7,379 bases of DNA, taken from assembly GCA_007136585.1 (NCBI GenBank), contig SLGR01000180.1, forward strand, positions 1 to 7,379. Direction: 5' to 3'. Shown here one piece after another: positions 2,076 through 7,379 of this stretch (position 1 is the first letter of the stretch; every line of letters starts with the position of its first letter). A program made the position numbers and the translations under genes. The notes under the pieces were generated by a model, which ran no database searches, was not told where the DNA came from, and saw only the letters and a list, made by a program, of their open reading frames with translations. Source of the stretch: Candidatus Sumerlaeota bacterium. GTDB taxonomy: Bacteria > CG03 > SLGR01.

Positions 2076-2308
2076 AAATCAAGTTAGTCGCGTGCTTAAG
2101 CACACGAAACTTCCGTAGGGGCTGTCGCTATCGCTCCTCAAGGGGGCGGGATGCCCCCTATGACGTCCGCTAAAGCGTCCTGTTACCCCCCGGCTTGGAA
2201 AAATACTTTTTCCAAACCTTTTGAGCCGGAAATAATTCCGGCTTAAGCCCCTCCCGGCGTTCGCTTCGCTCACTGTCACCCCAATCGGGGTATGTGAATC
2301 CGCCCGGG

Positions 2309-2331
2309 AAAATCCTATTAAATAGGGTTTT
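2309..2331. terminator. Possible weak, bidirectional Rho-independent terminator
   Basis: The stem pairs AAAATCCTAT with ATAGGGTTTT around a TAA loop, with one G-T wobble. It is followed by T residues when read in either direction. On the minus strand it sits about 135 nt after the kinase-like gene's stop. The stem is AT-rich and thermodynamically modest, so termination is only a possibility. Confidence 0.3.
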
Positions 2332-2380
2332 TCAGGATGAACACACTTGTTCATATCCTTTCCCCCGGTACCCCCTGATA

Positions 2381-2415
2381 ATTGCATCGGGTCAACTTTG
2401 AAATTCCGATGCAAT
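2381..2415. repeat. Perfect 10-bp stem hairpin at the kinase-proximal end of the array
   Basis: ATTGCATCGG (2381-2390) is perfectly complementary to CCGATGCAAT (2406-2415). The 15-nt loop contains a second small stem (TCAA/TTGA). It lies 51 nt beyond the stop codon of the kinase-like gene. Neither strand has a T-run after the stem, so it does not look like an intrinsic terminator. It could mark the border of the array or protect the mRNA 3' end. Confidence 0.6.
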
Positions 2416-6845: not shown

Positions 6846-6898
6846 AGCCCCTCCCGGGTAAAAAGTTCTTATTCCTTGTTTCCTTCATAACAGTTTAA

Positions 6899-6927
6899 TT
6901 CATACAGCTTTAAAAACTTTTTGTCAA
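6899..6927 (-). promoter_or_regulatory. Sigma70-type promoter of the M16 peptidase gene
   Basis: On the minus strand a perfect TTGACA (6922-6927) is followed, after exactly 17 bp, by TATGAA (6899-6904, 4/6). Transcription would begin near 6892 and give a leader of about 47 nt, ending in the GGGAGGGG ribosome binding site before the ATG at 6845. Confidence 0.65.
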
Positions 6928-6946
6928 ATTAATACAAGACCTTCGG

Positions 6947-6977
6947 TGGATAGCACCTCAAAAGTTAAGACACTTTC
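6947..6977. mobile_element. Possible solo IS3-family (IS150-like) terminal inverted repeat
   Basis: The segment begins TGGATAGCACC and continues with TCAAAAGTTAAGACAC. It resembles, from memory, the end pattern of many IS3/IS150-group elements: TG at the tip, then CACC-C-AAAAGTT-AGACAC. No matching opposite end is found in the window and no transposase domain remains, so at most this is a relic. The resemblance is recalled, not searched. Confidence 0.3.
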
Positions 6978-7113
6978 AAAGCGCCTCATCTCTTATCTTA
7001 TGGATATTATTATAATTTAAATTGTTCCCTCTAATCTTATCCTTAACCTTCCGTCTACCAATTCCGCCCATCTTTCTTTTCTCATTCAACCCATAATACA
7101 GTCTTTTTCTCAT
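6976..7113 (-). CDS. Short basic reading frame, 45 codons, doubtful or transposon relic
   Basis: The frame begins ATG at 7113 with MRKRLYYGLNEKRKMGG, is rich in Lys/Arg and Asn, and ends at a TGA within the possible IS terminal repeat. The frame stays open about 10 codons upstream of the ATG, with no good ribosome binding site before it. I recognise no family. It could be a decayed C-terminal piece of a transposase, given the adjacent IS-like end, or chance in AT-rich DNA whose other strand is pyrimidine-biased, which naturally encodes K/R/E/G codons. A real small protein is the least supported option. Confidence 0.2.
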   Translation of the reverse strand: MRKRLYYGLNEKRKMGGIGRRKVKDKIRGNNLNYNNIHKIRDEAL

Positions 7114-7234
7114 TGGAGTCAAGTACTTAAATTCACAAAAAATTTACGGAACTTTTGAATTGATTTCACATATGTAAGGTATCCTAACCCCCGGAAGGGA
7201 AATGAATTAGGCAAAACAGAGATGAAGTTTTAAA

Positions 7235-7240
7235 AGGAGG
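7235..7240 (+). promoter_or_regulatory. Strong ribosome binding site for the gene at 7247
   Basis: A perfect AGGAGG, preceded by AAAA, lies 6 nt before the ATG at 7247. It fixes the start and supports the short visible frame as a real gene. Confidence 0.8.
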
Positions 7241-7246
7241 CTTGAA

Positions 7247-7379
7247 ATGAAAAGTTTTAAAAATTTTGTGGCAGGCGGCATCTTTCTGGGATTTATGCTT
7301 CTATGCGTTAATGATGCGCTGGGTTTACTAATAGCTTCGAGTGAAGAATATTCGAAAAGCAGCAATTCAGAAATATCTC
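7247..7379 (+). CDS. Secreted or membrane protein of unknown function, 5' end only
   Basis: The first 44 codons run off the window edge without a stop. The N-terminus MKSFKNFVAGGIFLGFMLLC is a clear signal sequence: basic residues (K2, K5), then a hydrophobic core (about residues 8-20). A plausible signal-peptidase I site follows ALG at residues 24-26. The cysteine at 20 is preceded by LL and not Gly/Ala, so it does not make a good lipobox. The visible mature part is Ser/Glu-rich (IASSEEYSKSSNSEIS). The start is secured by AGGAGG 6 nt upstream. The gene is AT-rich like the intergenic DNA before it and unlike the GC-rich genes to the left, which hints at different ancestry or a recently acquired segment. 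The function cannot be told from this fragment. Confidence 0.75.
   Translation, partial: MKSFKNFVAGGIFLGFMLLCVNDALGLLIASSEEYSKSSNSEIS

Follow-up and report, generated by a model that had tools for sequence, protein, structure and literature searches.

A hairpin array made of two nested elements

The stretch of DNA that we analysed (the window; 7,379 nucleotides (nt), contig SLGR01000180.1 of the Candidatus Sumerlaeota bacterium assembly GCA_007136585.1) carries at positions 2081–2415 an intergenic element that contains no protein gene. It is flanked by a minus-strand gene of no recognised family (stop at 2467) and by a gene for a CxxCxxCC zinc/iron-chelating-domain protein, the start codon of which lies only five bases from the element edge. 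Seven inverted repeats, with arms of 7–16 nt and loops of 0–15 nt, are packed end to end across 2088–2415. The region 2076–2440 folds with −147.7 kcal/mol on the minus strand (z −6.24) and −133.2 kcal/mol on the plus strand (z −6.43), and 0 of 100 dinucleotide shuffles were as good on either strand. The packing and the folding bear out the dense array of hairpins that a first-pass annotation had described here. Searches of the region against Rfam 15 returned no family above the gathering threshold and, at relaxed thresholds, chance-level matches only (Mahella-1 and CRISPR repeats), in line with the first-pass annotation, which recognised no named riboswitch, ribozyme or REP family here; a tRNA search of the same region found none. 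The array consists of two related non-autonomous mobile elements of one family, one inside the other, and it is this composite nature that the first-pass annotation had missed. We consider it probable that the family is undescribed and that its folded strand is moved in trans, with an antisense stem setting the junction.

The source genome, a 1.88-Mb draft in 257 contigs, holds further copies with 93–99% identity at unrelated loci on contigs C4, C215 and C137, as well as a 45-base remnant on C187, the edge of which reads AAC|AAGTTAG. Together with copies in genome G005, these set the ends of the composite element (sense strand, minus) independently at 2081 and 2415, the coordinates given before. 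Repeats are often truncated at contig ends, and the C4 and C215 copies are cut in this way; all copy numbers are lower bounds, as copies hidden by assembly breaks are uncounted. The C137 copy is shorter and reads GGGGCTTTAGCCCC where the window has GGGGCT, 122 further bases and AGCCCC. Because C137 is without these 122 bases, we place a second element in the loop of the third hairpin (GGGGCT/AGCCCC) of the outer one: the left arm (2246–2251) and right arm (2118–2123) of this hairpin, contiguous in C137, are here split by the nested copy.

On the minus strand, the outer element runs from a 5′ hairpin beginning ATTGCATCGG through a core to a 3′ hairpin ending CTT|G. The 5′ terminal hairpin (ATTGCATCGGAATTTCAAAG...CCGATGCAAT; 2381–2415) forms an end common to copies in several phyla and is followed by accessory hairpins in the hairpin-1 region (2277–2297, 2304–2336 and 2337–2354), the core motif GGGGTGACAG (2273–2282; an exact match to the core of distant genomes) and a hairpin-2 segment, TGAGCGAAGCGAAC plus CGCC (2256–2272), that is identical in a G005 copy. 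The 3′ terminal hairpin (AAGTTTCGTGTGC..GCACGCGACTAACTT; 2081–2112) rests on an inverted repeat and the fold, and it abuts a CAAG at 2080–2083 of the plus strand (sense ...CTT|G), where other copies have C or T before AAG. The nested element (2124–2245, minus strand), which covariance models R1 and R2 match, comprises a 5′ hairpin (AAGCCGGAATTATTTCCGGCT; 2224–2244), C, AAAAGG (2217–2222), hairpin 1 (TTTGGAAAAAGTATTTTTCCAAG; 2194–2216), the core motif GGGGTAACAG (2180–2189), a second hairpin, GTCATA, hairpin 3 (AGGGGGC..GCCCCCT; 2141–2159), TTGA and a last hairpin.

A core and termini shared by distant bacteria

In a DNA search that covered 61 genomes, matches came from members of the same order and phylum, and G005 and G009 carry the same termini as the window element. 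More distant bacteria were reached by a second covariance model and then by a plain pattern: the core GGGGTGACAG-hairpin-CGCCAGA-GGGG..CCCC-TATGG has 34 exact matches in 12 of 386 genomes, compared with 0 for the reversed-pattern control. Its unpaired parts enclose a variable stem, in that hairpin-2 has 29 distinct sequences among 33 copies (median z −2.9). Free copies, that is, those outside tRNA genes, share the part order RGYATCGGAATTT...CCGATRC, GGATTAGGGGG, hairpin, core, AAGTATCCCCGAAGGGGATATCTTG, and the outer element of the window has the same order plus its accessory hairpins. Across 16 free copies, 92% of stem cells are paired and the unpaired stretches are nearly invariant. In the four stems, 15 pairs are changed on both sides, compared with 7.0 in shuffled alignments (0 of 500 as good) and 2–4 in slid controls; the 16 sequences come from a few genera, and in four of them the 5′ hairpin is misaligned. 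The first-pass annotation had named three outcomes that would speak against it (no homologous copies, no compensatory changes and no excess folding energy). The opposite was found for each: searching this genome and its relatives yielded copies in both, in keeping with the proposed extragenic repeat family, the free copies have compensatory base changes, and the region folds better than shuffled sequence. In genome G309 (contig C39, locus L279), three tandem core copies lie within about 350 bases with similar GC-rich hairpins between them, and arrays may form in this way.

The outer 5′ end (sense ATTGYATCGGAATTTCAAA) is present in 110 stretches of named genomes, a count that includes some chance matches within genes. 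The main carriers are metagenome-assembled genomes (MAGs) of Atribacteria, bacterium Prado141, Omnitrophota RS_10_7, Cloacimonadota RS_16_45, SpSt-1156 and the Elusimicrobia MAGs GH52 and AUK228. At the opposite edge, the 35 Atribacteria copies listed have AAGATA, preceded by C in nearly all and by T in 3. IS91- and Helitron-like elements have GAAC or CAAG at one edge; the edge here reads CAAG in the window and in most Atribacteria copies and is GAAC-like in Prado141, but some of these bases may belong to the target. Terminal hairpins without inverted terminal repeats are a feature of the family, and inspection of aligned copies revealed two differing ends and neither the terminal inverted repeats nor the target duplication of miniature inverted-repeat transposable elements that depend on a DDE transposase. 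No protein gene recurs within 3 kb of the free copies among the 110 stretches, and we rejected a carried gene on this ground. Collections of phages and plasmids gave 0 matches; viral contigs gave 0 for the core or module and one for the 3′-end pattern. Searches of an open-access literature library yielded no description of the consensus strings. In the Cloacimonadota RS_16_45 copies, runs of CCTTAGCC-like repeats directly precede the common terminus.

Antisense segments at tRNA genes

Eighteen copies in six genomes (G003, G007, G053, G109, G111 and G249) lie 3′ of a tRNA gene, all 18 in tRNA orientation. The stretch just before AAAAGG or GGGAAAGAGG in these copies is complementary to their own tRNA over a mean of 9.8 nt, compared with 5.6 nt for other tRNAs (none of 20,000 permutations did as well). 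The match is 7–14 nt in most copies, is held at a near-constant distance before the motif and spans the junction. After the core, most of the 18 copies contain a duplicate of the 3′ part of the tRNA, ending at or near CCA. Of the 14 copies in which this duplicate is usable, 13 have its first base within the antisense-matched interval. Such duplicates are no general feature of tRNA genes, as none was seen at 29 tRNA genes of the source genome. These tRNA-gene copies leave a restored tRNA plus a displaced 3′ fragment, an arrangement found in most of the 18 copies of the relatives and not in the window copy.

This rule was first seen in G003, where a covariance model of the nested module finds nine good copies, all adjoining tRNA genes or tRNA 3′ fragments, and where AAAAGG is invariant beside the antisense segment. 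The copies in G053, G109, G111 and G249 were recovered by the core alone and therefore provide an independent test of it. Within a single genome, eight different tRNA genes carry the same core, each with an antisense segment of its own. In Rfam searches of loci other than the window, the tRNA and weak tmRNA matches trace back to tRNA genes and to the 3′ copies of these. Contig C9 of G003 (L019/L201) breaks off within a second tRNA-Ser-like 3′ fragment plus the beginning of a further core; two copies may have inserted in tandem at a single tRNA gene.

Proposed mode of insertion

The multicopy, mobile-like distribution, the nesting, the conserved ends and core, the compensatory changes and the presence in distant bacteria are direct observations, as are the antisense match and the tRNA 3′ duplicate at the tRNA-gene copies of relatives. 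To account for them, we propose that the moving form is a folded single strand, RNA or DNA, whose insertion a trans-acting factor would carry out. The antisense stretch would pair with the target side and set the junction, a guide role inferred from sequence. Insertion at a tRNA gene would restore the 3′ end of the tRNA in the manner of integrase islands (PMC4383910). The outer copy of the window is one of the free copies, in which the fixed 5′ hairpin would replace the antisense stem and the 3′ end would lie at CTT|G. The nested copy would have entered the GGGGCT/AGCCCC loop of the outer copy, and the GGCT 3′ arm of its 5′ hairpin probably occupies the position that the antisense segment has in tRNA copies.

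Several points weigh against this explanation. No copy in the source genome was found at a tRNA gene, which leaves homology as the sole link between the antisense rule and the window. The nested copy has the same anatomy (hairpin, C, AAAAGG) with a match to its own target of 4 nt; because this match is so short, the anatomy does no more than suggest the rule for it. The duplicate is missing, through loss or from the outset, in two of the eight tRNA copies of G003. Mismatches in the stems are few, and the counts of G–U and A–C mismatches (11 versus 6; bias not significant) favour neither RNA nor DNA as the active form. No mobilising enzyme was found among the Y1 and Y2 transposases considered below, and all host genomes are drafts. 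Insertion itself could also leave the antisense segment behind as a by-product that guides nothing.

Repeats made of hairpins are widespread and tend to be passed over; here a core sharply conserved between distant bacteria is joined to a target-matched antisense segment at tRNA genes. If the segment is a guide, this would be another natural system in which a short piece of nucleic acid chooses an insertion site, in an element too small for any protein, and it would also explain why some contigs of these genomes break at repeats and why some of their tRNA genes look partial. More tentatively, and with considerable doubt, we suggest a class of very small mobile elements (about 150–350 bp) made of structured RNA or single-stranded DNA, with a reprogrammable antisense guide across the junction that would allow one core to enter many tRNA genes, each left intact.

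Known systems and alternative explanations

Elements that carry guides, such as group I and II introns and the IS110 bridge RNA, have an internal target-complementary segment that spans the insertion junction. The present family resembles them in this respect, but none of their cores or enzymes was recognised here and no Rfam match was found. PATEs and other non-autonomous elements derived from IS200/IS605 have a hairpin at each end and no inverted terminal repeats, as does this family, which differs in that its hosts are often without Y1, most tRNA copies have a 7–14-nt antisense match to the target and the tRNA 3′ end is duplicated. Stem–loop sequence families and REP-type extragenic palindromic repeats (PMC2267715) are likewise short, intergenic, multicopy, foldable and gene-free; the element described here is longer, has a conserved unpaired core between variable stems, occurs as nested copies and has relatives at tRNA genes with antisense matches. 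Genomic islands integrated in tRNA genes (Islander, PMC4383910) also restore the tRNA intact and leave a displaced 3′ fragment at the far end, whereas this family measures only about 150–250 bp, contains no integrase gene and places the same core at many tRNA genes of one genome.

These likenesses suggest other origins. A palindrome-ended passenger of an IS200/IS605-type Y1 transposase or RAYT (PATE- or REP-like) would have two terminal hairpins, constant edge bases, no inverted terminal repeats and, for free copies, no target duplication. Free copies do have subterminal hairpins at both ends and (C)AAG edge bases, and Y1 genes occur in 14 of 16 genomes of the phylum, one of them in the source genome. 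We nevertheless regard this origin as unlikely: Y1 (PF01797) is absent from 6 of 13 element-bearing genomes (G117, G384, G255, G309, G362 and G100) and also from G063 and G009; the surroundings of Y1 genes yielded neither the 3′-end motif within 3 mismatches, nor the core, nor any autonomous copy that shares the ends of the element; the IS200 copies of Atribacteria UBA6794 have ends that look dissimilar on inspection; and Y1 transposition leaves the duplicated tRNA 3′ ends unexplained. We rejected Y1 as mobiliser for its poor co-occurrence with the element, and an IS91-type Y2 transposase (PF04986) for being missing from most hosts (present in 2 of 15 genomes tested and absent from 13). Classical integrases each favour one site. 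Tyrosine-integrase islands reduced to their attachment region would integrate at tRNA genes, restore the 3′ end with element sequence and displace the old fragment to the far end, and an intact tRNA with a displaced 3′ fragment is the hallmark of such islands (PMC4383910) and is seen in most of the 18 copies. Reduction of this kind seems still less probable, given one core at eight tRNA genes of a single genome with its own antisense segment at each, free and nested copies outside tRNA genes, and an element that encodes no integrase and has no recurrent gene beside its free copies.

The remaining alternatives concern what the structure does. The first-pass annotation had allowed for a structured leader or spacer RNA; more broadly, a cis-acting RNA (a leader, terminator or tRNA-processing element) could have spread by vertical descent and gene conversion. 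Its compensatory changes and its orientation fit this view, the sense strand being the gene strand in the window and, in all 18 tRNA copies, that of the tRNA. Yet copies stand either at tRNA 3′ ends or in intergenic positions that are unrelated and adjoin unrelated genes, no element was found at the corresponding loci of relatives that keep the cupin–cyclophilin–CxxCxxCC gene order at the thresholds used, the stems are almost without G–U pairs and one copy is nested within another. A leader or spacer RNA as the main nature of the array is unsupported by these data, and we hold a cis-acting origin to be very improbable. A more serious alternative, if still a minority one in our estimate, is that strand-switching in the course of insertion or replication gives rise to both the antisense segment and the tRNA duplicate as by-products, neither of which would then be a targeting device. 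Some antisense segments do cover the T-arm imperfectly and resemble an eroded inverted copy; against this, the match sits at a near-constant distance before AAAAGG or GGGAAAGAGG and crosses the junction, and on balance we prefer insertion guided by the antisense stem.

Additional observations

Element-bearing MAGs vary from no Y1 match to twelve or more, with no evident relation to the number of element copies. Genomes G000 (contig C230), G002 and G003 each have a single RAYT-like Y1 gene of about 310–320 amino acids with the same neighbours, including an apparent LptF/LptG-like permease; because the neighbours are shared, the gene appears to be vertically inherited and not mobile. In Atribacteria UBA6794, a strong molybdenum/tungsten cofactor riboswitch (82 bits; L051, 2426–2563) has an element copy and ABC transporter-like genes in its vicinity. 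Within the window, positions 6850–7379, between an M16 peptidase gene and a plus-strand reading frame from about 7247, are AT-rich and differ in composition from the rest.
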